From: Phycomyces nitens
Lineage: Eukaryota; Mucoromycota; Mucoromycetes; Mucorales; Phycomycetaceae
Assembly: GCA_022702545.1 (NCBI GenBank)
Contig: JAHRBC010000006.1
Coordinates: 496,001-560,000 of the forward strand
Direction: 5' to 3'
Length of the DNA: 64,000 nt
Both the position numbers and the translations under genes were made by a program. The notes beneath the pieces are model-generated. The model did no database searches and was not told the origin of the DNA. It saw only the letters and a list, made by a program, of their open reading frames with translations. This document shows positions 1,775-42,221 of the stretch, piece by piece. Numbering within the stretch: position 1 is the stretch's first letter; each line of letters opens with the position of its first letter.

Positions 1775-2882
1775 TCTTTGGGTTGTATAGCTCGCTGATT
1801 GAGATGGACGATTGGGCTATATAGAATAAAAGGCGGGAAACCACAGCCAGACTTTACGAGGTAGAGATGAGCTTGGTCAAGTCGAACCACGTACTGACCA
1901 CTCATGACAACGTCATCCATTTGGTACTCCGACATTACTGCCCAGTGTGGATAACATCAGAATCATTTGCAATGTATATAATAGATATAGCTGGCTAGAG
2001 ATATTTGTAATGCAAGGGATTACTTTAATGGTGACAATACATGGTCAGAATGATCTGGAATATGAATATAAATATATATACATATACATATATTTATATT
2101 TATAAAAAAGAAAACTAACTGTCAACATTAGAATCTGCTTATAATCACATTTCCAAAAGGGCAAGTGTGGAAATAACGATTTAAGAATTACAATCATATG
2201 GTGCATCTGTAAATACAACTACTATTTAAAAAATAATTATATTTAAGAATTGAAAACAATAAGCTTTTTTGTTTATTTGTTTGATTTGCACACATATATT
2301 CTTTTCCTTAAACTCCTTTAAAGATTAATTGTAATTTAGATAATAATAATAATAATAATAAAATATAGATCCCTTGTAAATTTGGCCTCCCTATTTATCT
2401 CTATACAATAGCATGGCAATAATAATAACAATAATAACAATAATAACAAAAGTCAAAAATGAAGTTATTGTATCGATAAAGAATGTAACTAATGGCATCA
2501 TATAATGTTATATTCATCCATCTCACTTTACCACCGTCCTGACACCTTAATAATCCAGAATGCAATCCACAGCTAAAGAATGAAGACCCCCCAAAAGAAA
2601 AAGAAAAAAAAGAAAAAAAAGCAGGGTAAAATTCATATGGAAATGTCTCAAAGAATGAAGACCTTGACGCGTATTCAACAGCGTGCATCGCATAATACTA
2701 CACAAAATGCATGCCAATTTCAGTGCAGGTTCTCTTTTTTATCTATCCAAAACAAGATACCAATTGTCCACATTAAATCCAATCAATTTATTCAATAATA
2801 AAAAAACCGACATTTAGCATACCAGGCATTAATCAACAAACCAATGCAGATTCCACAAAAAAACAAAAAAAATTGGAAATCG
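1775..2882. other. Intergenic AT-rich region between ARPC4 and the giant gene
   Basis: The two flanking genes are divergent, so this holds both promoters. It contains AT-rich DNA, an (ATA)n run near 2341-2360 and an (AATAAT/AAC)n run near 2418-2450. Frames found here are translations of simple repeats and are not supported as genes. Confidence 0.6.
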
Positions 2883-2890
2883 TATAAAAA
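2883..2890 (+). promoter_or_regulatory. TATA box of the giant repeat-protein gene
   Basis: TATAAAAA lies 114 bp before the ATG at 3004 and is followed by a pyrimidine-rich leader (CTACCTCTCTATAC and similar) typical of strongly expressed fungal genes. No upstream ATG lies between this element and 3004. The promoter role is inferred from position and match to consensus. Confidence 0.6.
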
Positions 2891-3003
2891 GACGACCTTA
2901 TTTCAGACATCTACGGCACATTCCACATTTTCTATACTACCTCTCTATACTTACCTCTTTATCATTTTTATACTAATACCCTAATTATACCCAAAAACAT
3001 ATC

Positions 3004-6000
3004 ATGCGTTTCAGTCTCTCTGTCCTGGCAGGTCTTGTCTTGACCAACGCAGTCTTTGCCAAGGGACGTGACGAATCTTTATACCCCGCCGCAATTCACA
3101 ATGCTGGCAAACTATCATCAGTTGAAAATGACCATCAGAGACTCGATATTACACTCCAAGAGCCTCAGATGGACAAGCGAAGCATTCATGACTTTTTCCA
3201 AGATTTACTAGAGGTTGAAACTCAACAAGCTCCAGTGGTCGACAACTCTCCAAATCCTGCCACTCTTGCCAACCTTGACTCACCCGACGTCCCTGCTCCC
3301 CCACCATCTGATCCTTCCCAGCCAGAAGTACCCGAATCTTCAAATGCAGACGCAGATCAACCTAATGTCGGATCCGAATCTCCTCAAGAAGATGCCTCTG
3401 TAGAAGCCAATTCCCAAGAGCAAGAAGAGAATTCCCATGCCAATTCAAACAAGCATGGCCTTGTAGAAAACTTTTTCGGTGGACTCAAGGGTATGCTGGG
3501 AGAAATTAGAGGCAAGCACCACAAGAGCTCCCCTCCCAGTGATGGAAATTCAGACTCTGGTAGTCCATTGGAAATCCTTCCAGGCGGTGATATTATCTCT
3601 GATGTCAAGGATGCAAGCGAGAGCATCATAGGAGATATTCCCATCGTTGGCGATGTTGCTGGAGCAGCCAAGGATGCCGCTGACACTGCCGCTGATGGAG
3701 TAGAAGATCTTGCTGGTGGAGCCAAGCAAGCCGCTGAAGACACTGTTAACGGAGTAGAGAATGCTGCAGAAGACGTCGTTGGCGATGCCAAGGACAATAT
3801 TGAGGGTGTTGTTGACCATATTCCTGTCATTGGAGATGTCTTTGATGACGCCAGGGATATTGTTGAGAATGCAGCCGCTGATGACTCGGGCATCAGTTCT
3901 CTCATGGCTAATTCCAAGGTCGACACTAAGAACTCTCCCTTTGCAATCAATTCCAACCGGGGAACCTTCATACCTGGAGGAACCGTTACTTTCAGTGGGC
4001 CCTTGGGTTCTGCATCTTTGGTCTCAAGCACCAAGCCTGATCCGTCCAAATCTAGTGGAACATTTACCTTTGGTTCAGGCCCATCCAAATCATCCAATAT
4101 TATCTATAATCCAGATGGATCGTTTACCTTTGGAACCGGCACTCTCAATTCTCCAGGAATGAGCTACAGCTTTACTCCAATTAGCTCAAATGGACCAGTC
4201 AAATCTGGTGGATCATTCACCTTTGGCCCTGGAAACTCTGGTGGATCATATAACTTTGGTTCTGGCGGAATGAATATTCCAGGAGGATCTTACAACTTTG
4301 GTTCAGGTGGATCTGGAGGAGCTGGTAGCTCTGGAGGACTCAGTATTCCAGCAGGATCGTTCACCTTTGGCCCCAATGGTTCAGGAGGATCTGGAGGTGG
4401 CGGAGGCTCTGGTGGATCTGGAGGAAAGATTATTCCTGGAGGATCGTTCAGTTTTGGCTCCAATGGTTCCGGTGGATCTGGAGGTGGCGGAGGAGTTGGT
4501 GGCTCTGGAGGAATAACTATTCCAGGAGGATCGTTCAGCTTTGGTTCTAATGGTTCAGGAGGATCTGGTGGATCTGGAGGTGGCGGAGGCTCCGGAGGAA
4601 TACTTATTCCAGGAGGATCGTTCAGCTTTGGTTCCAATGGTTCAGGAGGCTCTGGTGGATCTGGAGGTGGCGGAGGAGTTGGTGGCTCCGGTGGTATTAA
4701 TATTCCAGGAGGATCGTTCAACTTTGGTTCCAATGGTTCAGGAGGCTCTGGTGGATCCGGAGGTTCCGGAGGCTCTGGAGGAATGAATATTCCAGGAGGA
4801 TCGTTCAGCTTTGGCTCCAAAGGTTCTGGTGGATCTGGAGGAGCTGGTGGCTCTGGAGGATCCAGTGGCTCCGGTGGTATTAATATTCCAGGAGGATCGT
4901 TCAGCTTTGGCTCCAATGGTTCTGGTGGATCTGGAGGATCTGGTGGCTCTGCAGGATCCAGTGGCTCCGGTGGTATTAATATTCCAGGAGGATCGTTCAG
5001 CTTTGGTTCCAATGGTTCTGGAGGATCTGGTGGCTCTGGAGGATCTGGCGGCTCCGGTGGTATTAATATCCCAGGAGGATCGTTCAGCTTTGGCTCCAAG
5101 GGTTCCGGTGGTTCTGGTGGATCTGGTGGCTCTGGAGGATCCAGTGGCTCCGGTGGTATTAATATTCCAGGAGGATCATTCAGCTTTGGTTCTAATGGCT
5201 CTGGTGGATCCGGAGGATCTGGTGGCTCTGGTGGATCCAGTGGCTCTGGAGGAATGAATATTCCAGGAGGATCGTTCAGCTTTGGTTCTAATGGCTCTGG
5301 TGGATCCGGAGGATCTGGTGGCTCTGGTGGATCCAGTGGCTCTGGAGGAATGAATATTCCAGGAGGATCGTTCAGCTTTGGTTCTAATGGCTCTGGTGGA
5401 TCCGGAGGATCTGGTGGCTCTGGTGGATCCAGTGGCTCTGGAGGAATGAATATTCCAGGAGGATCGTTCAGCTTTGGCTCCAATGGTTCTGGTGGATCTG
5501 GAGGCTCCGGTGGTTCGGGATCTGGCGGCTCAGGAGGATCATTCAACTTTGGCTCTGGTGGATCAAGCGGCTCTGGAGGTGTTGGAGGCTCCGGTGGTTC
5601 CGGTGGTTCGGGATCTGGCGGCTCAGGAGGATCATTCAACTTTGGCTCTGGTGGATCAAGCGGCTCTGGAGGTGTTGGAGGCTCCGGTGGTTCCGGTGGT
5701 TCGGGATCTGGCGGCTCTGGAGGATCATTCAGCTTTGGCTCTGGTGGATCAAGCGGCTCTGGCGGCTCTGGCGGCTCTGGCGGCTCTGGCGGCTCTGGAG
5801 GTGTTGGAGGTGTTGGAGGTTCCGGCGGTTCCGGAGGATCATTCAACTTTGGTTCCGGAGGATCAAGCGGATCAAGCGGATCAAGCGGATCTGGTGGATC
5901 TGGTGGATCTGGTGGATCGAGTGGTGCTGGAGGTGCTGGTGGCTCTGGTGGTTCCGGAGGATCATTCAACTTTGGTTCCGGAGGATCAAGCGGCTCTGGT

Positions 6001-9000
6001 GGATCTGGTGGATCAAGCGGTGCTGGAGGTGCTGGAGGCTCTGGTGGTTCCGGAGGATCATTCAACTTTGGATCAGGTGGCTCTATCCCAGGAGGAGTTG
6101 GAGGATCTGGTGGATCTGGTGGAGTAAGCGGCTCTGGTGGTGCTGGTGGATCAGGTGGATCAGGTGTATCTGGCGGTCCTGGATCTACTAGCACAAGTGT
6201 GTCTTACAGCTTTAGCTCAGAAAGCTCCGGAGGATCTGGTGGCTCCAAATCATCTAGCAGCTCTAGCGGATCAAGTAGCTCTGGTTCTGGTGGATCAAAC
6301 AGTTCTAGCAGCTCTGGCGGATCAAGCAGCTCTGGTGGTTCTGGTGGATCTAGCGGCTCGAAAGCATCCAGCAGTGCTGGAAGTTCAAGCAACTCTGGAC
6401 CAAGCGGTTCGAAAGCATCTAGCAGTGCTGGAAGTTCAGGCAGCTCTGGTGGATCGGGTGGTTCTGGAGACTCAACCAGCACTAGTGTGACATATAGTAT
6501 TTCATCAAGCACTTCTGGAGGTTCAAGCGGCTCTAAAGGCTCGAGCGGCTCTGGTGGATCTAGCGGCTCTGGCGGCTCTGGAGGATCTGGAGGATCTGGA
6601 GGATTAACTGGATCTGGAGGATTAACTGGATCTGGAGGATTAAGCGGCTCTGGCGGCTCTGGCGGCTCTGGTGGCTCTGGAGGATCTGGAGGATCTGGTG
6701 GCTCTGGAGGATTAACTGGATCTGGAGGATTAACTGGATCTGGAGGATTAACTGGATCTGGAGGATTAACTGGACATGGAGGATTAACTGGACCTGGAGG
6801 ATTAACTGGCTCTGGAGGATTAACTGGCTCTGGAGGATTAACTGGATCTGGAGGATCTGGTGGATCTGGAGGATCTGGTGGATCTGGAGGATCTGGTGGA
6901 TCTGGTGGATCTGGAGGATTAACTGGATCTGGAGGATCTGGTGGATCTGGAGGATTAACTGGATCTGGAGGATTAACTGGATCTGGAGGATTAACTGGAT
7001 CTGGAGGATCTGGTGGATCTGGAGGATTAACTGGATCTGGAGGATCTGGTGGATCTGGAGGATTAACTGGATCTGGAGGATTAACTGGATCTGGAGGATT
7101 AACTGGATCTGGAGGATTAACTGGACATGGAGGATTAACTGGACCTGGAGGATTAACTGGATCTGGAGGATTAACTGGACATGGAGGATTAACTGGATCT
7201 GGAGGATTAACTGGATCTGGAGGATTAACTGGATCTGGAGGATTAACTGGCTCTGGAGGATCTGGAGGCTCCAAAGGATCAAGCAGCTCTGGAGGATTAA
7301 CCGGCTCTGGAGGATCTGGCGGCTCCAAAGGATCAAGCAGCTCTGGAGGATTAACCGGCTCTGGTGGCTCTGGCTCCAAAGGATCAAGCAGCTCTGGAGG
7401 ATTAACCGGCTCTGGAGGATTAACCGGCTCTGGAGGATCTGGCGGCTCCAAAGGATCAAGCAGCTCTGGAGGATTAACCGGCTCTGGAGGATCTGGCGGC
7501 TCCAAAGGATCAAGCAGCTCTGGAGGATTAACCGGCTCTGGTGGCTCTGGTGGCTCCAAAGGATCAAGCAACTCTGGAGGATCCAGTGGATCTGGAAAAT
7601 CTGGAGGGTTATTCAACTTTGGACACAATGGATCTGGTGGACTTATTGGAGGTGGTCTTCATCATATCGGCGGTGTTGTAGACGATGTCGCTAATGACAT
7701 CAAGGGCAACAATGGCGGCAACGGCCATCTCCTTGGTAACGGCCACCTCCTTGGTAATGGTCATCTCCTTGGCAATGGCCACCTAGGTGGTGACAAGACT
7801 TCTGGTGGACATATTACAGATACAGTAAAGGGTGTCAAGAATGGAGTCGAAAATGCTGTAGACAAGATTCCAATTGTCGGTGACCTTGCTGGCGGAATCA
7901 AGGATGGTGCTCATAATATTGTCGGTGGACTCACAGGTGCCCATGATCATGGCACTGACAACAATAAGAATGGTGCCTCTAAATCGGGTGGTATTGTTGG
8001 TAACATTGGCAGCACTATCAAGAATGGAGCAGACAAAATTGTTGGTGGAATTCCAATTGTTGGTGACATCGCTAGTGATCTCAAAGATCATGCTCCTCAT
8101 GTCGGAGGACTTGTTGGCAACATTGGTAACAATATCAAGAATGGAGCAGACAAAATTGTTGGTGGAATTCCAATTGTTGGTGACATTGCTGGTGATCTCA
8201 AGGATGGCGCACATCACATTGTCGGCAACCTCCCTGGTGGTGATCTTTTTGGCAACCACAAAAATGGCGACAAGTCCGGTGCTTCTGGCCATACTGGTCC
8301 GTCTCACATTGGTGGAAATATTGGAAACGATGGCAAAAAAGGAAGCGACGGTCATGGTGGCCTCCCAATTGTTGGTAATATTGCCAATGATATCAAGGAT
8401 GGTGCAGGAAACCTAGTTGACGATATTAAAGGTGGATTCCATCATATTGGTGATGTTGCTGATCACGTCAAGGACGACGCCAAAAATGTTGTAAGCAAGA
8501 TTCCTCATGTTGGCGATATCTTGGGTGACAACAAGGATTCCCATGGTCTTCTAGGCGGACTTCCCAAGGGTCCCATTGGCCATGCCATTGGCAATATCAA
8601 AGATGGTGCTGACAAGATTGTCGATGATGTTACTGGTGGTATTAAGGACGGCAAACACATTGTTACAGATGGAATCCACCATATTGGCGATGTTGCTGAT
8701 CACGTCAAGGATGATGCCAAGTCTGCTATTGGAAAGATCCCTATTGTTGGTGATATCTTGGGTGACAACAAGGATCCCCATGGTCTTCTAGGCGGACTTC
8801 CCAAGGGTCCCATTGGCCATGCCATTGGCAATATCAAAGATGGTGCTGACAAGATTGTCGATGATGTTACTGGTGGTATTAAGGACGGCAAACACATTGT
8901 TACAGATGGAATCCACCATATTGGCGATGTTGCTGATCACGTCAAGGATGATGCCAAGTCTGCTATTGGAAAGATCCCTATTGTTGGTGATATTCTAGGT

Positions 9001-12000
9001 GACAAAAAGGATTCCCATGGTCTTCTAGGTGGTCTTCCCAAGGGTCCAATTGGCCATGCCATTGGCAATATCAAGGACGGCGCTGACAAGATTGTCGATG
9101 ATGCCACTGACGGCGTTAAAGACGGTGCTCATCTCCTCCACGGCGGTCTCCACCATATTGGAGATGTCGCTAATCACGTCAAGGATGATGCCAAGTCTGC
9201 TATTGGGAAGATCCCTATTGTTGGTGATATCCTAGGTGACAAAAAGGATTCCCATGGACTTTTAGGCGGTCTTCCCAAGGGTCCAATTGGCCATGTCATT
9301 GACAATATCAAGGACGGCGCTGACAAGATTGTCGATGATGCCAATGACGGTATTAAAGATGGTGGTCATCTCCTCCACGGCGGTCTCCATCACATCGGAG
9401 ATGTAGCTGATCATGTCAAGGATGGTGCCAAATCTATTGTCGGAAAGATTCCCGCTGTTGGTAATATCCTAGGTGACAAAAAGGATCCCCATGGACTTCT
9501 AGGTAGTCTTCCCAAAGGTCCAATTGGCCATGTAATTGGCAATATCAAGGACGGTGCTGACAAGATTGTCAACGATGCCACTGACGGCCTTAAGGATGGT
9601 GCTCACCTTCTTCATGATGGTCTCCACAATATTGGAGATATCGCTAATCATGTTAAGGATAATACCAAGGCTGCCATTGGAAAGATCCCCATTGTTGGTG
9701 ATATTGCCAATAATATTGAGAAAGGTGCTAAATCTATTGCCGGACACCTTCCTGGTATTGGTGGTGACGATAGCCAGAAACTTGGACATGTCGGCCTTCC
9801 CCATCTCCCTCACATTGGTCCTATTGGTCACATCATTGATGATGTTAAAAACGGGGTTGACAATGTTATTGGAAAGATTCCAGTTATCGGTAGTCATCAT
9901 CCTGGTGTTGATGGAGATGACAATCAAAAGTTAGGGCAGCCCGGTCATCTTAAGCGCGGACCTTTGGGTCATCTCGTAGGTGATGTTACTGACGGTGTTG
10001 AGCATGCTATCGAAAAAATCCCAATTGTCGGCGACATTGCTGGTGATCTTAAGAAGGGTGCCAAGTCAATTGCTGGTCATCTCCCTGGTCTTGGTCTTCT
10101 CCCTGGTCTTGGTCTTCTCCCTGGTGTTGGCCATCTCCCTGGATTTGACGGTGATGCTGATTCCAAGCACGGCCACCACGGAGTTCATCACGTTGGCCCT
10201 CTCGGTCATCTCCCTGGATTTGACGGTGATGCTGATTCCAAGCTCGGCCACCACGGAGTTCCTCACGTTGGCCCCCTCGGTCATCTCGTAGGAAAGACTC
10301 TCCACGGCGTTGATGGTGTTATTGAGAAGATCCCTGTCGTTGGTAATGTTGCTAACGGTCTCAAGAAGGGAACCAAGTCCGTTCTCGGCCATCTCCCTGG
10401 ATTTGACGGTGATGATGATTCCAAGCTCGGCCACCACGGAGTTCATCACGTTGGTCCTCTCGGTCATCTCGTAGGAAAGACTATCCATGGCGTTGATGAT
10501 GTTATTGAGAAGATTCCAGTCGTTGGTGATGTTGCTAGCGGTCTCAAGAAGGGCGCCAAGTCCGTTCTCGGCCATCTCCCTGGATTTGACGGTGATGATG
10601 ATTCCAAGCTCGGCCACCACGGAGTTCATCACGTTGGTCCTCTCGGTCATCTCGTAGGAAAGACTATCCATGGCGTTGATGATGTTATTGAGAAGATTCC
10701 TGTCGTTGGTGATGTTGCTAGCGGTCTCAAGAAGGGCGCCAAGTCCGTTCTCGGTCATCTCCCTGGATTTGACGGTGATGATGATTCCAAGCTCGGCCAC
10801 CACGGAGTTCATCACGTTGGCCCTCTCGGTCATCTCCCTGGATTTGACGGTAATGATGATTCCAAGCTCGGCCACCACAGAGTTCATCACGTTGGTCCTC
10901 TCGGTCATCTCGTAGGAAAGACTCTTCATGGCGTTGATGATGTTATTGAGAAAATCCCAGTCGTTGGTGATGTTGCTAGCGGCCTCAAGAAGGGTACTAA
11001 GTCCGTTCTCGGCCATCTCCCTGGCTTTGACGGTGATGCTGATTCTAAGCTCGGTCACCACGGAGTTCCTCACGTTGGTCCTCTTGGTCATCTCGTAGGA
11101 AAGACTTTCCATGACGCTGAAGACGTTATTGAGAAGATTCCCGTCGTTGGTGATGTTGCTAGCGGTCTCAAGAAGGGAACCAAGTCCGTTCTCGGTCATC
11201 TCCCTGGATTTGACGGTGATGCTGATTCCAAGCTTGGTCACCTCAGAGCCCCTCACGTTGGTCCTCTTGGTCATCTCGTAGGAAAGACTATCCATGGCGT
11301 TGATGATGTTATTGAGAAGATCCCAGTTGTTGGTGATGTTGCTAGCGGTCTCAAGAAGGGAACCAAGTCCGTTCTCGGTCATCTCCCTGGATTTGACGTT
11401 GATGCTGATTCCAAGCTCGGCCACCACGGAGTTCCTCACGTTGGCCCCCTCGGTCATCTCGTAGGAAAGACTCTCCACGGCGTTGATGGTGTTATTGAGA
11501 AGATCCCTGTCGTTGGTAATGTTGCTAACGGTCTCAAGAAGGGAACCAAGTCCGTTCTTGGTCATCTCCCTGGATTTGACGGTGATGCTGAATCCAAGCT
11601 CGGCCACCACGGAGTTCATCACGTTGGCCCTCTCGGTCATCTCGTAGGAAAGACTATCCATGGCGTTGATGATGTTATTGAGAAGATCCCAGTTGTTGGC
11701 GACGTTGCTGGCGGTGTCAAAAAGGGAACCAAGTCCGTTCTCGGTCATCTCCCTGGATTTGACGGTGATGCTGATTCTAAGCTCGGCCACCACGGAGTTC
11801 CTCACGTTGGCCCCCTCGGTCATCTCGTAGGAAAGACTCTCCACGGCGCTGATGGTGTTATTGAGAAGATCCCTGTCGTTGGTAATGTTGCTAGCGGTCT
11901 CAAGAAGGGAACTAAGTCCGTTCTCGGTCATCTCCCTGGATTTGACGGTGATGCTGATTCCAAGCTCGGCCACCACGCAGTTCCTCACGTTGGCCCTCTT

Positions 12001-15000
12001 GGTCATCTCGTAGGAAAGACTCTTCATGGCGTTGATGATGTAGTTGAAAAGATTCCTGTCGTTGGCGACGTTGCTGGCGGCCTCAAGAAGGGAACCAAGT
12101 CCGTTCTCGGTCATCTCCCTGGATTTGACGGCGGTGCTGATTCCAAGCTCGGTCACCACGGAGCACCTCACGTTGGCCATCTCAGTCATCTCGTAGGAAA
12201 GTCTCTCCATGGCGTTCAAGACGTTATTGAGAAGATTCCTGTTGTTGGCGATGCTGCTAGCGGTCTCAAGAAGGGAACTAAGTCCGTTCTCGGTCATCTC
12301 CCTGGCTTTGACGGTGATGTTGGATCCAAGCTCGGCCACCCCGGAGCTCCTCACGTTGGTCCTCTCGGTCATCTCGTAGGAACCACTCTTCATGGCGTTG
12401 ATAATGTAGTTGAAAAAATTCCAGTCGTTGGTGATGTTGCTAGCGGTCTCAAGAAGGGTACCAAGTCCGTTCTCGGCCATCTCCCTGGATTTGACATTGA
12501 TGCTGATTCCAAGCTCGGCCACCCCGAAGCTCCTCACGTTGGTCCTCTCGGTCATCTCGTAGGAAAAACTTTCCATGGCGTTGATGGTGTTATTGAGAAG
12601 ATCCCAGTCGTTGGTGATGTTGCTAGCGGTCTCAAGAAGGGAACCAAGTCCGTTCTCGGTCATCTCCCTGGCTTCGACATTGATGCTGATTCCAAGCTCG
12701 GTCACCCCGGAGCTCCTCACATTGGTCCTCTCGGTCATCTCGTAGGAAAGACTCTCCATGGCGTTGATGATGTTATTGAGAAGATCCCAGTCGTTGGTGA
12801 TGTTGCTAGCGGTCTCAAGAAGGGTACCAAGTCCGTTCTCGGCCATCTCCCTGGCTTCGACATTGATGTTGATTTCAAGCACGGCCACCCCGGAGCTCCT
12901 CACGTTGGCCCTCTCGGTCATCTCGTAGGAAAGACTATCCATGGCGTTGATGATGTTATTGAGAAGATCCCAGTTGTTGGTGATGTTGCTAGCGGTCTCA
13001 AGAAGGGTACCAAGTCCGTTCTCGGTCATCTCCCTGGCTTCGACATTGATGTTGATTTCAAGCACGGCCACCCCGGAGCTCCTCACGTTGGCCCTATCGG
13101 TCATCTCGTAGGAAAGACTATCCATGGCGTAGATGATGTTATTGAGAAGATCCCAGTCGTTGGTGATGTTGCTAGCGGTCTCAAGAAGGGTACCAAGTCC
13201 GTTCTCGGCCATCTCCCTGGCTTTGACATTGATGCTGATTCCAAGCTCGGTCACCCCGGAGCTCCTCACGTTGGTCCTCTCGGTCATCTCGTAGGAAAGA
13301 CTCTCCATGGCGTAGATGATGTTATTGAGAAGATCCCTGTTGTTGGTGATGTTGCTAGTGGTCTCAAGAAGGGAACCAAGTCCGTTCTCGGCCATCTCCC
13401 TGGCTTTGATATTGATGCTGATTCCAAGCTCGGCCACCCTGGAGCCCCTCACGTTGGCCCTCTCGGTCATCTCGTAGGAAAGACTCTCCATGGCGTAGAT
13501 GATGTTATTGAGAAGATCCCAGTTGTTGGTGATGTTGCTAGTGGTCTCAAGAAGGGTACCAAGTCCGTTCTCGGCCATCTCCCTGGTTTTGACATTGATG
13601 TTAATTTCAAGCACGGCCACCCCGGAGCTCCTCACGTTGGTCCTCTTGGTCATCTCGTAGGAAAGACTATCCATGGCGTTGATGATGTTATTGAGAAGAT
13701 CCCAGTCGTTGGTGATGTTGCTAGCGGTCTCAAGAAGGGAACCAAGTCCGTTCTCGGCCATCTCCCTGGCTTCGACATTAATGTTGATTTCAAGCACGGC
13801 CACCCCGGAGCTCCTCACGTTGGCCCTCTCGGTCATCTCGTAGGAAAGACTATCCATGGCGTAGATGATGTTATTGAGAAGATCCCAGTTGTTGGTGATG
13901 TTGCTAGCGGTCTCAAGAAGGGAACCAAGTCCGTTCTCGGCCATCTCCCTGGCTTCGACATTGATGCTGATTCCAAGCTCGGTCACCCCGGAGTTCCTCA
14001 CGTTGGCCCTCTCGGTCATCTCGTAGGAAAGACTATCCATGGCGTAGATGATGTTATTGAGAAGATCCCAGTTGTTGGTGATGTTGCTAGCGGTCTCAAG
14101 AAGGGAACCAAGTCCGTTCTTGGTCATCTCCCTGGATTTGATATTGATGCTGATTCCAAGCTCGGCCACCCCGGAGCTCCTCACGTTGGTCCTCTCGGTC
14201 ATCTCGTAGGAAAGACTCTCCATGGCGTTGATGATGTTATTGAGAAGATCCCAGTCGTTGGTGATGTTGCTAGTGGTCTCAAGAAGGGAACCAAGTCCGT
14301 TCTCGGTCATCTCCCTGGCTTTGACATTGATGTTGATTTCAAGCACGGCCACCCCGGAGCTCCTCACGTTGGTCCTCTCGGTCATCTCGTAGGAAAGACT
14401 ATCCATGGCGTTGATGATGTTATTGAGAAGATCCCAGTCGTCGGTGATGTTGCTAGTGGTCTCAAGAAGGGAACCAAGTCCGTTCTCGGCCATCTCCCTG
14501 GCTTCGACATTGATGTTGATTTCAAGCACGGCCACCCTGGAGCTCCTCACGTTGGTCCTCTCGGTCATCTCGTAGGAAAGACTATCCATGGCGTAGATGA
14601 TGTTATTGAGAAGATCCCAGTTGTTGGTGATGTTGCTAGCGGTCTCAAGAAGGGAACCAAGTCCGTTCTCGGCCATCTCCCTGGCTTTGACATTGACGTT
14701 GATTCCAAGCTCGGCCACCCCGGAGCTCCTCACGTTGGCCCTCTCGGTCATCTCGTAGGAAAGACTATCCATGGCGTTGATGATGTTATTGAGAAGATCC
14801 CAGTCGTCGGTGATGTTGCTAGTAGTCTCAAGAAGGGAACCAAGTCCGTTCTCGGTCATCTCCCTGGATTTGACATTGATGCTGATTCCAAGCTCGGTCA
14901 CCCCGGAGTTCCTCACGTTGGCCCTCTCGGTCATCTCGTAGGAAAGACTCTCCATGGCGTTGATGATGTTATTGAGAAGATCCCAGTCGTTGGTGATGTT

Positions 15001-18000
15001 GCTAGTGGTCTCAAGAAGGGAACCAAGTCCGTTCTCGGCCATCTCCCTGGCTTTGACATTGATGTTGATTTCAAGCACGGCCACCCCGGAGCTCCTCACG
15101 TTGGTCCTCTCGGTCATCTCGTAGGAAAGACTATCCATGGCGTAGATGATGTTATTGAGAAGATCCCAGTTGTTGGTGATGTTGCTAGCGGTCTCAAGAA
15201 GGGAACCAAGTCCGTTCTCGGTCATCTCCCTGGCTTCGACATTGATGTTGATTTCAAGCACGGCCACCACGGAGCTCCTCACGTTGGCCCTCTCGGTCAT
15301 CTCGTAGGAAAGACTCTCCATGGCGTTGATGATGTTATTGAGAAGATTCCAGTCGTTGGTGATGTTGCTAGCGGTCTCAAGAAGGGAACCAAGTCCGTTC
15401 TCGGCCATCTCCCTGGCTTCGACATTGATGCTGATTCCAAGCTCGGCCACCCTGGAGCTCCTCACGTTGGCCCTCTCGGTCATCTCGTAGGAAAGACTCT
15501 CCATGGCGTTGATGATGTTATTGAGAAGATCCCTGTTGTTGGTGATGTTGCTAGCGGTCTCAAGAAGGGAACCAAGGCCGTTCTCGGCCATCTCCCTGGC
15601 TTTGACATTGATGCTGATTCCAAGCTCGGCCACCACGGAGCTCCTCACGTTGGCCCTCTCGGTCATCTCGTAGGAAAGACTATCCATGGCGTTGATGATG
15701 TTATTGAGAAGATCCCAGTTGTTGGTGATGTTGCTAGCGGTCTCAAGAAGGGAACCAAGTCCGTTCTCGGCCATCTCCCTGGCTTTGACATTGATGCTGA
15801 TTCCAAGCTCGGCCACCCTGGAGCTCCTCACGTTGGCCCTCTCGGTCATCTCGTAGGAAAGACTCTCCATGGCGTTGATGATGTTATTGAGAAGATCCCA
15901 GTTGTTGGTGATGTTGCTAGTGGTCTCAAGAAGGGAACCAAGTCCGTTCTCGGCCATCTCCCTGGCTTTGACATTGATGCTGATTCCAAGCTCGGTCACC
16001 CCGGAGCTCCTCACGTTGGTCCTCTCGGTCATCTCGTAGGAAAGACTATCCATGGCGTTGATGGTGTTATTGAGAAAATCCCAGTCGTCGGTGATGTTGC
16101 TAGTGGTCTCAAGAAGGGAACCAAGTCCGTTCTCGGTCATCTCCCTGGATTTGATATTGATGCTGATTCCAAGCTCGGCCACCCTGGAGCTCCTCACGTT
16201 GGCCCTCTCGGTCATCTCGTAGGAAAGACTCTCCATGGCGTTGATGATGTTATTGAGAAGATCCCAGTTGTTGGTGATGTTGCTAGTGGTCTCAAGAAGG
16301 GTACCAAGTCCGTTCTCGGCCATCTCCCTGGCTTTGACATTGATGCTGATTCCAAGCTCGGCCACCCCGGAGCTCCTCACGTTGGCCCTCTCGGTCATCT
16401 CGTAGGAAAGACTATCCATGGCGTTGATGATGTTATTGAGAAGATCCCAGTCGTCGGTGATGTTGCTAGCGGTCTCAAGAAGGGAACCAAGTCCGTTCTC
16501 GGCCATCTCCCTGGCTTTGACGGTGATGCTGATTCCAAGCTCGGCCACCCTGGAGCTCCTCACGTTGGTCCTCTTGGTCATCTCGTAGGAAAGACTATCC
16601 ATGGCGTTGATGATGTTATTGAGAAGATTCCAGTCGTTGGTGATGTTGCTAGCGGTCTCAAGAAGGGAACCAAGTCCGTTCTCGGTCATCTCCCTGGCTT
16701 TGACATTGATGCTGATTCCAAGCTCGGTCACCCCGGAGCTCCTCACGTTGGTCCTCTCGGTCATCTCGTAGGAAAGACTCTCCATGGCGTTGATGGTGTT
16801 ATTGAGAAAATCCCAGTCGTCGGTGATGTTGCTAGTGGTCTCAAGAAGGGAACCAAGTCCGTTCTCGGCCATCTCCCTGGCTTCGACATTGATGCTGATT
16901 CCAAGCTCGGCCACCCTGGAGCTCCTCACGTTGGCCCTCTCGGTCATCTCGTAGGAAAGACTCTCCATGGCGTTGATGATGTTATTGAGAAGATCCCAGT
17001 TGTTGGTGATGTTGCTAGTGGTCTCAAGAAGGGAACCAAGTCCGTTCTCGGCCATCTCCCTGGCTTTGATATTGATGCTGATTCCAAGCTCGGCCACCCT
17101 GGAGCTCCTCATGTTGGCCCTCTCGGTCATCTCGTAGGAAAGACTCTCCATGGCGTTGATGGTGTTATTGAGAAGATCCCAGTCGTTGGTGATGTTGCAA
17201 GTGGTCTCAAGAAGGGAACCAAGTCCGTTCTCGGCCATCTCCCTGGCTTTGACATTGATGCTGATTCCAAGCTCGGTCACCCCGGAGCTCCTCACGTTGG
17301 TCCTCTCGGTCATCTCGTAGGAAAGACTCTCCATGGCGTTGATGGTGTTATTGAGAAAATCCCAGTCGTCGGTGATGTTGCTAGTGGTCTCAAGAAGGGA
17401 ACCAAGTCCGTTCTCGGCCATCTCCCTGGCTTTGACATTGATGCTGATTCCAAGCTCGGCCACCCTGGAGCTCCTCACGTTGGCCCTCTCGGTCATCTCG
17501 TAGGAAAGACTCTTCATGGCGTTGATGGTGTTATTGAGAAGATCCCAGTCGTCGGTGATGTTGCTAGTGGTCTCAAGAAGGGAACCAAGTCCGTTCTCGG
17601 CCATCTCCCTGGCTTTGACATTGATGCTGATTCCAAGCTCGGTCACCCCGGAGCTCCTCACGTTGGTCCTCTTGGTCATTTCGTAGGAAAGACTCTTCAT
17701 GGCGTTGATGGTGTTATTGAGAAGATCCCAGTCGTCGGTGATGTTGCTAGTGGTCTCAAGAAGGGTACCAAGTCCGTTCTCGGCCATCTCCCTGGCTTTG
17801 ATATTGATGCTGATTCCAAGCTCGGCCACCCCGGAGCTCCTCACGTTGGCCCTCTTGGTCATCTCGTAGGAAAGACTATCCATGGCGTTGATGGTGTTAT
17901 TGAGAAGATCCCAGTCGTTGGTGATGTTGCAAGTGGTCTCAAGAAGGGAACCAAGTCCGTTCTCGGTCATCTCCCTGGATTTGACATTGATGCTGATTCC

Positions 18001-19383
18001 AAGCTCGGTCACCCTGGATCCCCTCATCTTGGTCTCCCACTTATTGGCTCTCTTGGTCATGCCGCTGGAGATGCTGCAAAGGGTGCTGATCATGTTATTG
18101 GAAAGATCCCAATTGTCGGTGATATTGCAAGTGGACTCAAGAATGGTGCAGGATTGATTGGTGGACACCTTCCTGGAATTGGTGGTGATGATAATTCAAA
18201 GGTGAAACACCATGGTATCTTTGGAATCCCTCATATCGGTCAACACCATGGTGTCGTAGGTGCTGTTGCTGATGGTGTCAAGGATGTGGTTAAAGACGCA
18301 GGAGCAATTGCTGGTAGCGCAGCAGGTGGAGCTATTGCGGGTACTAAGGACGGAGCACATGTCATTGGCGGACTCGTAGGCGATGCTTCGCATGTCTTTG
18401 GACTTGGTAGTGATGTTGTAGTTGGTGGAATTCCGATTGTTAAGGATATTACCCATGGTATCAAGAAGAGTGCAGATCTTGTTAGTGATGGAATCTCTGG
18501 ACTTGGCGATATCGCAAGCAAAACAGCTAATGGTTTGATTCACGGTGCGGACGCTCTCGTTGGTGGAATCCCGATTGTTGGTGATATTTCCGGCGGAATC
18601 AAGAAGGGTGCAGATGCTATTACCAATGTTCTAGGTGGAAAGCACAATGGACCCTTGCACTTTGGTGGAGCACTTCCTAGTCTCGGTGATGTTGCCGGTG
18701 ATATCGTTGGTGGTGCTGCTGGAAGTGTCAAGAATGCTGCCGATCTTATTAATGATGGAATCACTGGCGCTGGTAAAATTGCTGGAAAAGCCGCTAGTGG
18801 CATTATCGACGGTGCCGATGCTCTTGTTGGTGGAATTCCCGTTATTGGTGATTTTACCGGTGGTGTCAAGAAGGGCGCTGACTTAATCGGCAGTGGAAAA
18901 CCTTCTCCTATTGGCATCCCAACCATTGGTGGTCTCGCTGGAGGTGTCGTTGGAGGCGTTGCTGGTGGTATCAAGAAAGGTGCTGATTTGATCGGTGATG
19001 GATTCTCAGACATTACCCATGTTGCTGGAAAGGCTGCTAATGGTATTGTTAACGGTGCTGATGCCCTCGTTGGTAAAATCCCCATTGTCGGTGACATTAC
19101 TGGTGGTATCAAGAAAGGCGTAAACGCAGTTACTGGCGATCACTCTGGACTATCTCTCGGTATCCCAGGCATCGGACACATTGGTTCCCCCAAAAAGGGC
19201 AGAGGTGGTCTTTTCGGTGGTCTCTCTGAAGAAGATGCTGTAAGCATGATGGCAAACTCTATTGATGAGCTGGACGAGTTCATTGATATTGCTGCTGATA
19301 TTCGCTCTGCCGACGTTGAGTTCCCTAGCTTTGAGATGGGATACTTGTCTCAGTCTGACTTTGAGAACTTTGATCTTGATTAG
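3004..19383 (+). CDS. Giant secreted repeat protein, 5459 residues, single exon, family not recognised
   Basis: One uninterrupted frame of 16.4 kb. Residues 1-19 form a clear signal peptide with a likely cut after VFA, and K58-R59 is a candidate Kex2 site. Residues of about 60-190 are acidic and Pro/Ser-rich. About 195-300 is an amphipathic Ala/Asp/Val segment with the first copies of an IPIVGDV motif. About 400-1535 is Gly/Ser-rich, silk-like. About 1540-2380 holds diverged IPIVGDI/DGAD repeats. About 2380-5010 holds roughly 43 nearly identical 61-residue units. About 5010-5459 holds diverged units and an acidic tail ending FENFDLD. No GPI signal or transmembrane segment follows the signal peptide, so secretion to the wall or medium is inferred. 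I recognise no catalytic domain. A structural, adhesive or spore-coat role is plausible but unproven. The absence of introns contrasts with the neighbours. Collapse or expansion of repeats in the assembly could alter the length. Confidence 0.9.
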   Translation: MRFSLSVLAGLVLTNAVFAKGRDESLYPAAIHNAGKLSSVENDHQRLDITLQEPQMDKRSIHDFFQDLLEVETQQAPVVDNSPNPATLANLDSPDVPAPPPSDPSQPEVPESSNADADQPNVGSESPQEDASVEANSQEQEENSHANSNKHGLVENFFGGLKGMLGEIRGKHHKSSPPSDGNSDSGSPLEILPGGDIISDVKDASESIIGDIPIVGDVAGAAKDAADTAADGVEDLAGGAKQAAEDTVNGVENAAEDVVGDAKDNIEGVVDHIPVIGDVFDDARDIVENAAADDSGISSLMANSKVDTKNSPFAINSNRGTFIPGGTVTFSGPLGSASLVSSTKPDPSKSSGTFTFGSGPSKSSNIIYNPDGSFTFGTGTLNSPGMSYSFTPISSNGPVKSGGSFTFGPGNSGGSYNFGSGGMNIPGGSYNFGSGGSGGAGSSGGLSIPAGSFTFGPNGSGGSGGGGGSGGSGGKIIPGGSFSFGSNGSGGSGGGGGVGGSGGITIPGGSFSFGSNGSGGSGGSGGGGGSGGILIPGGSFSFGSNGSGGSGGSGGGGGVGGSGGINIPGGSFNFGSNGSGGSGGSGGSGGSGGMNIPGGSFSFGSKGSGGSGGAGGSGGSSGSGGINIPGGSFSFGSNGSGGSGGSGGSAGSSGSGGINIPGGSFSFGSNGSGGSGGSGGSGGSGGINIPGGSFSFGSKGSGGSGGSGGSGGSSGSGGINIPGGSFSFGSNGSGGSGGSGGSGGSSGSGGMNIPGGSFSFGSNGSGGSGGSGGSGGSSGSGGMNIPGGSFSFGSNGSGGSGGSGGSGGSSGSGGMNIPGGSFSFGSNGSGGSGGSGGSGSGGSGGSFNFGSGGSSGSGGVGGSGGSGGSGSGGSGGSFNFGSGGSSGSGGVGGSGGSGGSGSGGSGGSFSFGSGGSSGSGGSGGSGGSGGSGGVGGVGGSGGSGGSFNFGSGGSSGSSGSSGSGGSGGSGGSSGAGGAGGSGGSGGSFNFGSGGSSGSGGSGGSSGAGGAGGSGGSGGSFNFGSGGSIPGGVGGSGGSGGVSGSGGAGGSGGSGVSGGPGSTSTSVSYSFSSESSGGSGGSKSSSSSSGSSSSGSGGSNSSSSSGGSSSSGGSGGSSGSKASSSAGSSSNSGPSGSKASSSAGSSGSSGGSGGSGDSTSTSVTYSISSSTSGGSSGSKGSSGSGGSSGSGGSGGSGGSGGLTGSGGLTGSGGLSGSGGSGGSGGSGGSGGSGGSGGLTGSGGLTGSGGLTGSGGLTGHGGLTGPGGLTGSGGLTGSGGLTGSGGSGGSGGSGGSGGSGGSGGSGGLTGSGGSGGSGGLTGSGGLTGSGGLTGSGGSGGSGGLTGSGGSGGSGGLTGSGGLTGSGGLTGSGGLTGHGGLTGPGGLTGSGGLTGHGGLTGSGGLTGSGGLTGSGGLTGSGGSGGSKGSSSSGGLTGSGGSGGSKGSSSSGGLTGSGGSGSKGSSSSGGLTGSGGLTGSGGSGGSKGSSSSGGLTGSGGSGGSKGSSSSGGLTGSGGSGGSKGSSNSGGSSGSGKSGGLFNFGHNGSGGLIGGGLHHIGGVVDDVANDIKGNNGGNGHLLGNGHLLGNGHLLGNGHLGGDKTSGGHITDTVKGVKNGVENAVDKIPIVGDLAGGIKDGAHNIVGGLTGAHDHGTDNNKNGASKSGGIVGNIGSTIKNGADKIVGGIPIVGDIASDLKDHAPHVGGLVGNIGNNIKNGADKIVGGIPIVGDIAGDLKDGAHHIVGNLPGGDLFGNHKNGDKSGASGHTGPSHIGGNIGNDGKKGSDGHGGLPIVGNIANDIKDGAGNLVDDIKGGFHHIGDVADHVKDDAKNVVSKIPHVGDILGDNKDSHGLLGGLPKGPIGHAIGNIKDGADKIVDDVTGGIKDGKHIVTDGIHHIGDVADHVKDDAKSAIGKIPIVGDILGDNKDPHGLLGGLPKGPIGHAIGNIKDGADKIVDDVTGGIKDGKHIVTDGIHHIGDVADHVKDDAKSAIGKIPIVGDILGDKKDSHGLLGGLPKGPIGHAIGNIKDGADKIVDDATDGVKDGAHLLHGGLHHIGDVANHVKDDAKSAIGKIPIVGDILGDKKDSHGLLGGLPKGPIGHVIDNIKDGADKIVDDANDGIKDGGHLLHGGLHHIGDVADHVKDGAKSIVGKIPAVGNILGDKKDPHGLLGSLPKGPIGHVIGNIKDGADKIVNDATDGLKDGAHLLHDGLHNIGDIANHVKDNTKAAIGKIPIVGDIANNIEKGAKSIAGHLPGIGGDDSQKLGHVGLPHLPHIGPIGHIIDDVKNGVDNVIGKIPVIGSHHPGVDGDDNQKLGQPGHLKRGPLGHLVGDVTDGVEHAIEKIPIVGDIAGDLKKGAKSIAGHLPGLGLLPGLGLLPGVGHLPGFDGDADSKHGHHGVHHVGPLGHLPGFDGDADSKLGHHGVPHVGPLGHLVGKTLHGVDGVIEKIPVVGNVANGLKKGTKSVLGHLPGFDGDDDSKLGHHGVHHVGPLGHLVGKTIHGVDDVIEKIPVVGDVASGLKKGAKSVLGHLPGFDGDDDSKLGHHGVHHVGPLGHLVGKTIHGVDDVIEKIPVVGDVASGLKKGAKSVLGHLPGFDGDDDSKLGHHGVHHVGPLGHLPGFDGNDDSKLGHHRVHHVGPLGHLVGKTLHGVDDVIEKIPVVGDVASGLKKGTKSVLGHLPGFDGDADSKLGHHGVPHVGPLGHLVGKTFHDAEDVIEKIPVVGDVASGLKKGTKSVLGHLPGFDGDADSKLGHLRAPHVGPLGHLVGKTIHGVDDVIEKIPVVGDVASGLKKGTKSVLGHLPGFDVDADSKLGHHGVPHVGPLGHLVGKTLHGVDGVIEKIPVVGNVANGLKKGTKSVLGHLPGFDGDAESKLGHHGVHHVGPLGHLVGKTIHGVDDVIEKIPVVGDVAGGVKKGTKSVLGHLPGFDGDADSKLGHHGVPHVGPLGHLVGKTLHGADGVIEKIPVVGNVASGLKKGTKSVLGHLPGFDGDADSKLGHHAVPHVGPLGHLVGKTLHGVDDVVEKIPVVGDVAGGLKKGTKSVLGHLPGFDGGADSKLGHHGAPHVGHLSHLVGKSLHGVQDVIEKIPVVGDAASGLKKGTKSVLGHLPGFDGDVGSKLGHPGAPHVGPLGHLVGTTLHGVDNVVEKIPVVGDVASGLKKGTKSVLGHLPGFDIDADSKLGHPEAPHVGPLGHLVGKTFHGVDGVIEKIPVVGDVASGLKKGTKSVLGHLPGFDIDADSKLGHPGAPHIGPLGHLVGKTLHGVDDVIEKIPVVGDVASGLKKGTKSVLGHLPGFDIDVDFKHGHPGAPHVGPLGHLVGKTIHGVDDVIEKIPVVGDVASGLKKGTKSVLGHLPGFDIDVDFKHGHPGAPHVGPIGHLVGKTIHGVDDVIEKIPVVGDVASGLKKGTKSVLGHLPGFDIDADSKLGHPGAPHVGPLGHLVGKTLHGVDDVIEKIPVVGDVASGLKKGTKSVLGHLPGFDIDADSKLGHPGAPHVGPLGHLVGKTLHGVDDVIEKIPVVGDVASGLKKGTKSVLGHLPGFDIDVNFKHGHPGAPHVGPLGHLVGKTIHGVDDVIEKIPVVGDVASGLKKGTKSVLGHLPGFDINVDFKHGHPGAPHVGPLGHLVGKTIHGVDDVIEKIPVVGDVASGLKKGTKSVLGHLPGFDIDADSKLGHPGVPHVGPLGHLVGKTIHGVDDVIEKIPVVGDVASGLKKGTKSVLGHLPGFDIDADSKLGHPGAPHVGPLGHLVGKTLHGVDDVIEKIPVVGDVASGLKKGTKSVLGHLPGFDIDVDFKHGHPGAPHVGPLGHLVGKTIHGVDDVIEKIPVVGDVASGLKKGTKSVLGHLPGFDIDVDFKHGHPGAPHVGPLGHLVGKTIHGVDDVIEKIPVVGDVASGLKKGTKSVLGHLPGFDIDVDSKLGHPGAPHVGPLGHLVGKTIHGVDDVIEKIPVVGDVASSLKKGTKSVLGHLPGFDIDADSKLGHPGVPHVGPLGHLVGKTLHGVDDVIEKIPVVGDVASGLKKGTKSVLGHLPGFDIDVDFKHGHPGAPHVGPLGHLVGKTIHGVDDVIEKIPVVGDVASGLKKGTKSVLGHLPGFDIDVDFKHGHHGAPHVGPLGHLVGKTLHGVDDVIEKIPVVGDVASGLKKGTKSVLGHLPGFDIDADSKLGHPGAPHVGPLGHLVGKTLHGVDDVIEKIPVVGDVASGLKKGTKAVLGHLPGFDIDADSKLGHHGAPHVGPLGHLVGKTIHGVDDVIEKIPVVGDVASGLKKGTKSVLGHLPGFDIDADSKLGHPGAPHVGPLGHLVGKTLHGVDDVIEKIPVVGDVASGLKKGTKSVLGHLPGFDIDADSKLGHPGAPHVGPLGHLVGKTIHGVDGVIEKIPVVGDVASGLKKGTKSVLGHLPGFDIDADSKLGHPGAPHVGPLGHLVGKTLHGVDDVIEKIPVVGDVASGLKKGTKSVLGHLPGFDIDADSKLGHPGAPHVGPLGHLVGKTIHGVDDVIEKIPVVGDVASGLKKGTKSVLGHLPGFDGDADSKLGHPGAPHVGPLGHLVGKTIHGVDDVIEKIPVVGDVASGLKKGTKSVLGHLPGFDIDADSKLGHPGAPHVGPLGHLVGKTLHGVDGVIEKIPVVGDVASGLKKGTKSVLGHLPGFDIDADSKLGHPGAPHVGPLGHLVGKTLHGVDDVIEKIPVVGDVASGLKKGTKSVLGHLPGFDIDADSKLGHPGAPHVGPLGHLVGKTLHGVDGVIEKIPVVGDVASGLKKGTKSVLGHLPGFDIDADSKLGHPGAPHVGPLGHLVGKTLHGVDGVIEKIPVVGDVASGLKKGTKSVLGHLPGFDIDADSKLGHPGAPHVGPLGHLVGKTLHGVDGVIEKIPVVGDVASGLKKGTKSVLGHLPGFDIDADSKLGHPGAPHVGPLGHFVGKTLHGVDGVIEKIPVVGDVASGLKKGTKSVLGHLPGFDIDADSKLGHPGAPHVGPLGHLVGKTIHGVDGVIEKIPVVGDVASGLKKGTKSVLGHLPGFDIDADSKLGHPGSPHLGLPLIGSLGHAAGDAAKGADHVIGKIPIVGDIASGLKNGAGLIGGHLPGIGGDDNSKVKHHGIFGIPHIGQHHGVVGAVADGVKDVVKDAGAIAGSAAGGAIAGTKDGAHVIGGLVGDASHVFGLGSDVVVGGIPIVKDITHGIKKSADLVSDGISGLGDIASKTANGLIHGADALVGGIPIVGDISGGIKKGADAITNVLGGKHNGPLHFGGALPSLGDVAGDIVGGAAGSVKNAADLINDGITGAGKIAGKAASGIIDGADALVGGIPVIGDFTGGVKKGADLIGSGKPSPIGIPTIGGLAGGVVGGVAGGIKKGADLIGDGFSDITHVAGKAANGIVNGADALVGKIPIVGDITGGIKKGVNAVTGDHSGLSLGIPGIGHIGSPKKGRGGLFGGLSEEDAVSMMANSIDELDEFIDIAADIRSADVEFPSFEMGYLSQSDFENFDLD
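4201..7590 (+). repeat. Gly/Ser-rich silk-like tandem repeats inside the giant gene
   Basis: Up to about 6.1 kb the dominant module is an IPGGSFSFGSNG block separated by runs of GGS. From about 6.6 to 7.5 kb the module changes to a short GGLTGS repeat (15-18 bp units built on GGATTAACTGGATCT), with occasional GHGGLTGPG variants and KGSSSS inserts. GGX motifs of this kind are found in silks and other flexible fibrous proteins; the comparison is compositional only. The segment lacks Cys and has almost no charged residues. Confidence 0.85.
10141..18030 (+). repeat. About 43 tandem 183-bp units encoding a 61-residue repeat
   Basis: Successive copies of the same coding string are spaced 183 bp apart, for example at 12361 and 12544. 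Each unit encodes, in order, GAPHVGPLGHLVGKT, HGVDDVIEKIPVVGDVAS, GLKKGTKSVLGHLPGF and a DxDxD-type acidic patch followed by SKLGHP or FKHGHP. There are about five histidines per unit. Near 10.1-10.9 kb some units are shortened so that HLPGFDGD follows HVGPLGH directly. Units differ mostly at a few positions, indicating recent expansion or homogenisation. Confidence 0.92.
12690..15610 (+). repeat. Higher-order repeat, 732-bp period (four 183-bp units)
   Basis: Within the 61-residue array, units with the FKHGHP variant occur in adjacent pairs, followed by two SKLGHP units. The variant codon string begins at 12871, 13054, 13603, 13786, 14335, 14518, 15067 and 15250. Equivalent members of each pair are exactly 732 bp apart, that is four units. 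A further 732-bp spacing is seen at 16071 and 16803, followed by a 549-bp (three-unit) step at 17352. Confidence 0.85.
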
Positions 19384-20099
19384 TTTAGAAACTCTATTTC
19401 TTAGTCTAGTATTTGGTTCATCCAAACTTGATTTCGTCTATTGACGTGTTGGTATTGAAAATATTATAAGTTCTGATCAATTATATCCTTTTGTAAATCG
19501 ATCGATTTTCATATGATATCCACTTAATAAATTATCTATCCCAATAATATCCGCCACCGTTTTGAAATGTGCTTGACTTGTAGATTACTTTTGGGAATGT
19601 TGGGTTTAATCAATAGAAGCTTGGGTTAAATGTATCGTTTCTTGTTGTCAGGTGTTTAAATAAGAGAATAAATTGTGTTTAGGTTGAATATTGTATTGCT
19701 GGCTGTAGCTAAATGGATCCCAACTGTCTATAGACTTTTTTTTTTTACAAACGGCTTCAATTGTTGTTGGAAAACAATATACGAGCCTGCTTGTAATATA
19801 CTTTTTTGTAAAGTTTGCTTCTTGAAATTATTGGGGTGTAAAATCTCTTTATTCTTATTTTTTGTATAAAAGCAAAATATATATTTATCAGTAACCCGCT
19901 CTATAGGTCAGAGGATTACTGTAATGTTCAATTGTGGAAATAACTATAGGGTGAGTTTAAAGGCTACTTGAGAGTATGTATGTTCTATAGCAAAACTAAT
20001 AAAAGCATTAATATTGTATTGTTACAATGTTATTTTCAAAATATATAAAGCATTAACCTGTTTGGTGCCTGCGTAATAAAACGCGGCATGTAATTTGTC
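19384..20099. other. Intergenic region after the giant gene
   Basis: AT-rich DNA with no supported gene. The giant gene and the peroxiredoxin-like gene converge here, so both 3' ends lie in this stretch. AATAAA-like signals occur near 19526 and 19667, but I cannot assign a poly(A) site. Confidence 0.5.
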
Positions 20100-38880: not shown

Positions 38881-39372
38881 AAGGTCAAAATACCCGTAGT
38901 GCATGCCACTTCCTCCAACCCAACAGTTTTCTTGCAAGTATATAGCCTGCCATGTCATTTTAAAAAAAGACATGTGGTGTTCCCGACAAGCAGCCATTGC
39001 AAGGATACTAGAAAAAAATTAGAGGCATGGTTAACACGATGCAGCAGCACGGATAGCACCCCAATCCATCAAGGCTAAGACATCAAGGTCAAAATACCCA
39101 TAATACATACCACTTCCTCCGACCCAGAAGTCCTCTTGTAATGCTACTAGAAAAAAAACTTTTCTAGAGCCATAGTTAACACGATGCAGCAGCACGGACA
39201 GCACCCCAATCCATTAAGGCTAAGACATCAAGGTCAGAATACCCGTAGTGCATGCCACTTCCTCCGACCCAACGGTCCTCTTGCATGTCTATAGCCTGCC
39301 ATGCCAATTAAAAAAAAAGACATGTGGTGTTCCCGACAAGCAGCCATTGCAAGGATACTAGAAAGGTACTTT
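38881..39372. repeat. Three-copy imperfect tandem repeat with coding-like content
   Basis: The string AAGGTCAAAATACCCGTAGT and its variants recur at 38881, about 39087 and about 39231. The first and third copies share an arm of about 130 bp ending in GACAAGCAGCCATTGCAAGG. The second copy lacks this arm but shares with the third a leading block containing GTTAACACGATGCAGCAGCA. Read on the minus strand, copies 1 and 3 encode related peptides (MAACREHHMSFF followed by WVGGSGMHYGY). In copy 1 these are in one frame; in copy 3 a change in the T run puts them in different frames. It looks like duplicated, decaying coding DNA of unknown origin. Confidence 0.7.
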
Positions 39373-42217: not shown

Positions 42218-42221
42218 TTTT
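42218..42221 (+). terminator. RNA polymerase III terminator of the tRNA gene
   Basis: Four T residues follow the last base of the tRNA directly. A longer T-rich stretch from about 42242 could act as a backup. Confidence 0.7.

Follow-up and report, generated by a model that had tools for sequence, protein, structure and literature searches.

The forward strand of a 64,000-nucleotide stretch of the Phycomyces nitens genome (contig JAHRBC010000006.1, positions 496,001 to 560,000; hereafter, the window) contains, at window positions 3004-19383, a single ATG-to-stop frame of 5,459 codons plus the stop, with a product of ~524 kDa. This frame is a gene under purifying selection, and the size and design of its product are surprising, in a classical model genus. 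On balance, we favor reading the product, from its sequence, as a giant secreted silk-like structural protein, that is, a block copolymer in which an FxFG/Gly-Ser gel block is combined with a pH-sensitive, His-rich amphipathic array, and which would form a coat, an adhesive or a matrix. An initial annotation of the same DNA had placed the frame exactly, in both coordinates and length (3004..19383, forward strand, 5,459 aa), and had called the gene intronless, which on the sequence holds for the frame, uninterrupted from ATG to stop.

The open frame and the evidence for a gene

We divided the gene and its flanks into the following features (window positions, strand).

2883..2888 (+): TATAAA, a possible core promoter some 120 bases 5' of the ATG, read from the sequence
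3004..3060 (+): residues 1-19, signal-peptide-like, ending in VFA; the top hydrophobic 19-mer of the protein, with the cleavage point placed by eye
3061..3180 (+): residues 20-59, possible propeptide ending in KR (motif scan)
3181..3993 (+): residues 60-330, acidic N-terminal region that contains an Ala-rich amphipathic stretch as well as two IPxVGD motifs
3994..7713 (+): residues 331-1570 (1,240 aa), Gly/Ser block, 45% Gly and ~30% Ser, with TRF arrays
7714..10329 (+): residues 1571-2442, diverged IPxVGD region with four successive 79-aa units; holds the second KR
10330..18105 (+): residues 2443-5034, main array, made up of 40 61-aa units together with an 86-aa and a 66-aa unit
10066..18093 (-): antisense open frame of 2,675 aa within the array, judged a shadow
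18106..19215 (+): residues 5035-5404, diverged C-terminal IPxVGD repeats (motif and periodicity analysis)
19216..19380 (+): residues 5405-5459, acidic non-repetitive tail with 16 Asp+Glu and 1 Lys+Arg
19526..19531 (+): AATAAA, 3' of the stop; possible polyadenylation signal, read from the sequence

At the base composition of the window, the chance of 5,459 open codons is log10 ~ −147. A frame of this kind could nevertheless be kept open by periodic repeats, or result from an assembly artefact, and not be a working gene: a period divisible by 3 yields shadow frames, such as the 2,675-aa antisense frame, and a protein database with P. nitens entries did not return the giant protein. Against this explanation, the non-periodic parts are open as well; for the 1,651 codons that belong neither to the array nor to the Gly/Ser block, the chance is log10 ~ −44, so that the periodicity of the array does not account for the open frame. 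None of the 780 pairs of units is identical at the DNA level (best, 98.9%), and hence there is no sign of an artificially copied stretch in the assembly. The number of units, about 40, is that of the assembly and may not be exact.

The pN/pS values of the sense frame likewise speak against a non-functional frame, being 0.24 for the 40 units of exactly 61 aa and 0.30 for 41 units (with 61 residues of the 66-aa unit included). Among the 40 units, pN/pS is lower outside the inter-unit linker than within it (0.16 vs. 0.37), suggesting that selection guards the amphipathic parts. The four 79-aa units are more diverged (pS 0.39), with pN/pS of 0.24. Over the same units, pN/pS is 2.43 in the open antisense frame vs. 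0.28 in the sense frame; accordingly, an antisense gene (10066..18093, minus strand) was rejected, and this frame was taken as a by-product of the sense frame. At 2,675 aa, it could be mistaken for a gene by a gene finder. Another minus-strand frame has a pN/pS of 0.38 but contains 113 stops.

Codon usage was compared to a reference of two nearly identical EF-1alpha copies (L063 and L064), with two histone loci left out, the marker being absent. In simulations that retained the same residues and drew codons from five neighbouring frames, all five segments of the gene were nearer to the EF-1alpha usage than 300 of 300 replicates. The CAI was the most extreme for the array (0.398 vs. 0.164 expected) and the least extreme for the Gly/Ser block (0.149 vs. 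0.106). Lysine is encoded by AAG in 243 of the 250 cases in the array, where the repeated codons are not independent. Using a three-copy EF-1alpha table, whose accompanying histone columns were set aside given that at least four of the frames taken (L066, L068, L070 and L071) are not histones by their first residues, we obtained 0.348 for the antisense frame, 0.345 for the whole sense frame and 0.471 for the array. Codon usage supports the single-copy parts as coding, which again counts against the absence of a working gene, but for the array it cannot, on its own, tell which strand is coding; that decision comes from pN/pS. With these observations in hand, we consider it scarcely credible that the frame is not a working gene. 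The EF-1alpha-like codon usage also hints at strong expression. The EF-1alpha domain family has five matches of almost equal strength in the genome, two each on contigs C5 and C6 and one on C8, with L062-L064 being three of them, which suggests several EF-1alpha copies.

Organization of the protein

The initial annotation had described a signal peptide, a KR site, a silk-like Gly/Ser block and dozens of 61-residue repeats, with no visible membrane span, and these were recovered, the signal peptide as a signal-like start. In a Kyte-Doolittle 19-mer scan, hydrophobicity is highest at the start of the chain (1.58, with 1.47 for the best internal stretch), and the signal peptide is predicted from this hydropathy. 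The same scan of the whole protein brought out no clear membrane-spanning segment. The last 55 residues are acidic, and the 14 stretches listed as most hydrophobic all lie elsewhere, which speaks against a GPI anchor. Cys and Trp are absent from the protein, which has 343 His, 18 Gln and 8 Tyr. The KR site is located at residues 58-59; a second one, at residues 2317-2318 (9952-9957), was absent from the initial annotation. With 2 KR, 0 RR and 53 KK among 5,459 residues, the KR sites could be due to chance. In the genome, matches to P_proprotein (PF01483), a family linked to kexin, occur at two places, one with an internal stop.

The Gly/Ser block contains 24 FxFG-like motifs with Gly/Ser linkers between them, and its hydrophobic moment peaks at 170 degrees (z = 7.2, 200 shuffles). 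In the four IPxVGD regions, the moment peaks at 100-105 degrees (z = 5.8, 13.5, 23.7 and 9.3, 200 shuffles each), the z value of the array being inflated because shuffling breaks the repeats; in the N-terminal region, the signal at 100 degrees comes from residues 190-300 (z = 5.8 vs. 200 shuffles). A short MANS-containing stretch is present both before the Gly/Ser block (residues 298-307; 3895-3924) and in the acidic tail (residues 5414-5422; 19243-19269). The two stretches are possibly related end modules and possibly a chance resemblance.

The 61-residue unit

We detected 59 IPxVGD-like motifs in the protein with one regular expression. The 40 units of exactly 61 aa start at residues 2443 and 2504 and then from 2651 to 4908 in 61-residue steps; TRF reports 39.4 copies of 183 bp (93%). 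Identity to the consensus is 91.8% in the first ten units and 96.8% in the last ten, a difference that probably reflects greater renewal of the array towards the 3' side. The linker between units consists of Pro, Gly, His and Asp, and its 20 of the 61 positions hold 72 of the 127 non-consensus residues. Comparison of the repeated unit to 2,000 shuffled-then-repeated versions shows that the fraction matching its 100-degree moment is 0.0005. The best 18-residue amphipathic stretches flank the IP, with moments of 0.54 around HLVGKTLHGVDDVIEK and 0.46 around IPVVGDVASGLKKGTKSV. The AlphaFold model of 219 array residues (~3.5 units, 43-row alignment) has a mean pLDDT of 28.8 and no secondary structure, and that of the C-terminal 611 residues, made without an alignment, has a mean pLDDT of 38.8, with helices drawn. 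Both models are of low confidence, too low to serve for a fold search. The protein may be disordered until assembly, or may not be helical at all.

The KK at unit positions 12-13 is invariant (40 of 40 units). If cleaved, these sites would free about forty cationic amphipathic peptides of 61 residues with an antimicrobial or signalling role, making the giant protein a peptide precursor. The 53 KK in the protein and the amphipathic moment of 0.46 in the Lys-rich segment fit such a role, as does the retention of KK in the diverged C-terminal units at 5143, 5189, 5278 and 5359; however, KK is replaced by KN in the unit at 5035 and by KD in those at 1622, 1683, 1722 and 1787. Furthermore, KK is a poor Kex2 site, the favorable KR and RR sites number two and none, respectively, in 5,459 residues, and the 1,240-residue Gly/Ser block would be left unexplained. 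We therefore regard a peptide precursor as very unlikely.

Histidine makes up 237 of the 2,568 residues in the array (9.2%), with 5 to 7 per unit (mean 5.55), falling from 7 to 5. Calculation with pKa values entered by hand gives the consensus unit a net charge of +4.1 at pH 5, +1.6 at pH 6 and −0.5 at pH 7. The high His content, together with the HHGVHH found in some early units, could indicate that the 343 His mainly chelate extracellular Zn, Cu or Ni, in which case the protein would act as a sponge for metals or nutrients. Conservation does not extend to the His pairs, however, with HPGAPH taking the place of HHGVHH in most later units while the number of His per unit drops, and we give this role, if anything, even less credence than that of a peptide precursor.

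Search for related sequences

Searches of the organism's own genome (49.0 Mb in 11 contigs, with the window on contig C8) yielded no second copy among the best candidates scored (56 for the unit, 12 for the N-terminal 395 residues and 12 for the C-terminal 450 residues). Of the 57 genome-wide matches to the DNA pattern for IP[VIM][VIM]GD, 53 are in the giant gene and 4 elsewhere, compared to 3 for the reversed control; all 18 matches to the DNA pattern for GGSF[SN]FG are in the giant gene (control, 0). By sequence, the gene is apparently single-copy.

In protein-database searches, which admitted lengths of ~3,000-9,550 and 340-1,075 residues, there were no relatives at E 0.001 among the 1,071 and 7,994 candidates scored. 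The database holds P. nitens proteins, including the STE12-type factor encoded in the window, yet the giant protein itself was not returned, and the giant frame seems to be absent from the database at the lengths admitted. Very long repetitive frames can thus be missing from databases. Because the giant protein itself was not returned, its orphan status is unproven and close Phycomyces relatives are possible, and a protein-database search would overlook any relative whose gene prediction had gone wrong in like manner. A PDB sequence search with two pieces gave no relative. In GTDB genome contigs, none of the 83 pattern matches to two array units was confirmed, nor was the single match in viral contigs to the C-terminal 429 residues.

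The initial annotation did not recognize the repeat unit as a described family and proposed a profile search; in Pfam, we found no convincing domain-level match. Whole-protein cut-offs were passed in some pieces by DUF4112, DUF502, DUF7217 and ISG65-75. For DUF4112, DUF502 and ISG65-75, no stretch passes alone, the scores being sums of short matches, and these candidates were rejected as domains. DUF4112 (PF13430), which matches on a short IPxVGD-containing stretch, passes its cut-off of 23.3 bits in two whole pieces (30.9 and 38.8 bits), with at most 20.1 bits in shorter pieces; DUF502 (PF04367) also passes the whole-protein cut-off in two pieces, but only through summed short matches. DUF7217 (PF23854; cut-off 29) reaches 32.2 bits in a piece of 1,166 aa, where one stretch is reported, and 30.3 bits in a piece of 400 aa, where there is none; it was rejected given that the 160-aa region alone gives 20.6 bits with one weak stretch. 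Dicistro_VP4 (one stretch, 17.9 bits vs. a cut-off of 22.6) and four NCBIfam models at E 0.001 (best 31.6 vs. 307, far under the cut-offs) were rejected as well. A search of the open-access literature for the motif letters of the repeat gave no paper, and no giant secreted structural protein is named in the listed titles and abstract openings of related open-access work on Phycomyces or Mucoromycota. The description of the protein as belonging to an unknown family thus stands for the profile searches and is to be qualified by composition, since the protein has the Gly content of the silk-like class (PMC4944945).

Comparison with known structural proteins

The silk-like structural proteins of the SilkSlider class, which were surveyed in animals, combine a secretion signal with an 80-residue domain of at least 25% Gly and are said to be lineage-restricted and often modular (PMC4944945). 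In the giant protein, 1,504 of the 5,380 80-residue windows contain at least 25% Gly (maximum, 59%). It resembles the class in its signal-like start, its Gly domain and its repeats, and differs in being fungal and in having a larger half formed by an amphipathic array of 61-aa units, rich in His and low in Ser. The assignment is by composition, not by descent. Judged by composition, the class is already known, and the libraries searched contain no convincing match to the repeat unit.

Squid beak proteins phase-separate via GHGxY repeats, with His as a pH switch and Tyr being required (PMC6884462). The giant protein has Gly/His-rich repeats in common with these proteins, and its His could be a pH switch as well; unlike them, it has 0 GHGxY and 8 Tyr, and V, L and I account for most of its hydrophobic residues. 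A further comparison is offered by the AGLs of Glomeromycotina, which are small GPI-anchored repeat proteins of the cell surface, Gly- or Pro-rich, with a secretion signal and no known relatives (PMC8786786). The Gly-rich tandem repeats are a shared feature, in contrast to the length of 5,459 aa and the acidic, non-hydrophobic C-terminus of the giant protein.

The amphipathic periodicity, strong in all four of the IPxVGD regions analysed, is compatible with a surface-active coat as well, in which the array would form a repellent film on sporangiophores or spores, a role played elsewhere by hydrophobins or by Rep1 of Ustilago. Hydrophobins carry eight conserved Cys, whereas the giant protein has none; searches for hydrophobins gave 0 matches here but also 0 in 14 control genomes. 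Kex2-processed repeat proteins are defined by KR or RR sites. Such proteins were present in 38 of 39 Mucoromycota strains surveyed, and Ustilago Rep1, which is repetitive and cleaved by Kex2, provides a precedent, its products being water-repellents needed for aerial hyphae (PMC7329392). The giant protein shares with them fungal tandem repeats, a signal-like start and KR, but its two KR in 5,459 residues never separate repeats. This arrangement weighs against a surface-active coat, and about 30% of the consensus unit consists of charged residues or His, so that a soluble gel is equally likely. Such a repellent film appears unlikely to us.

Proposed mechanism

Returning to the silk-like structural protein that we favor, the signal peptide would direct the chain into the secretory pathway, where a single cut by a kexin-type protease may free it of residues 20-59. 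The FxFG pattern makes gels in nucleoporins. In the Gly/Ser block, where an FxFG-like pattern is observed, it would make the block a flexible sticker-and-spacer gel former. Each unit of the array would consist of two amphipathic segments, one ending in VDDVIEK and the other carrying GLKKGTK, that meet at the IP and are joined to the next by the Pro/Gly/His/Asp linker; the periodicity and the selection are observed, and the helices are putative. With 5-7 His per unit, the array is calculated to carry a strong positive charge near pH 5 (~+4 per consensus unit) and almost no net charge at pH 7, and the association of units, and hence the formation of a gel or film, could depend on pH or metals. 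The product would be an extracellular coat, adhesive or interspore matrix. The earlier description as a secreted structural or coat protein agrees with the signal-like start, the lack of a visible anchor and the purifying selection, whereas its coat, adhesive and fibrous roles are inferred from composition. A more specific version, namely, a secreted block copolymer of about half a megadalton in which a silk/FxFG-like gel block is joined to ~40 His-rich helix-hinge-helix units that lock and release with pH, located in the Phycomyces surface or interspore matrix and with a unit that arose within the lineage, is a tentative proposal that we consider more doubtful than probable.

For the study of large aerial cells, Phycomyces is a classic model genus. 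If the proposed function is true, an apparently single-copy giant coat or gel protein would provide a testable molecular component for the mechanics of the wall, the surface or the spore matrix and, for materials science, a counterpart of silks that is of fungal origin, lacks Cys and responds to pH.

Other genes in the window

ARPC4 lies upstream of the giant gene, with matches in two separate frames, and a weak AhpC/TSA match (20.0 bits vs. a Pfam cut-off of 26) lies downstream, followed further on by Sel1, P450 and CP2 genes, of which CP2 is in two frames and Sel1 in one. At positions 47584-50308 on the minus strand, an STE12-type factor with C2H2 fingers has its two domains in two frames; the database version is 831 aa long. 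Across 97% of the query, the frame that carries the fingers shows 100% identity to a P. nitens protein, and the next listed match is from Spinellus fusiger (37%). Among the neighbours checked, the statement of the initial annotation that most have introns is in keeping with ARPC4, CP2 and STE12, each split over two frames, but not with Sel1, which occupies a single frame. Outside the giant gene, the window contains a two-copy tandem repeat of 145 bp with 89% match (39020-39283). The only tRNA found in the window, using ARAGORN with the bacterial code, is a tRNA-Gln (TTG) at positions 42146-42219 of the forward strand.
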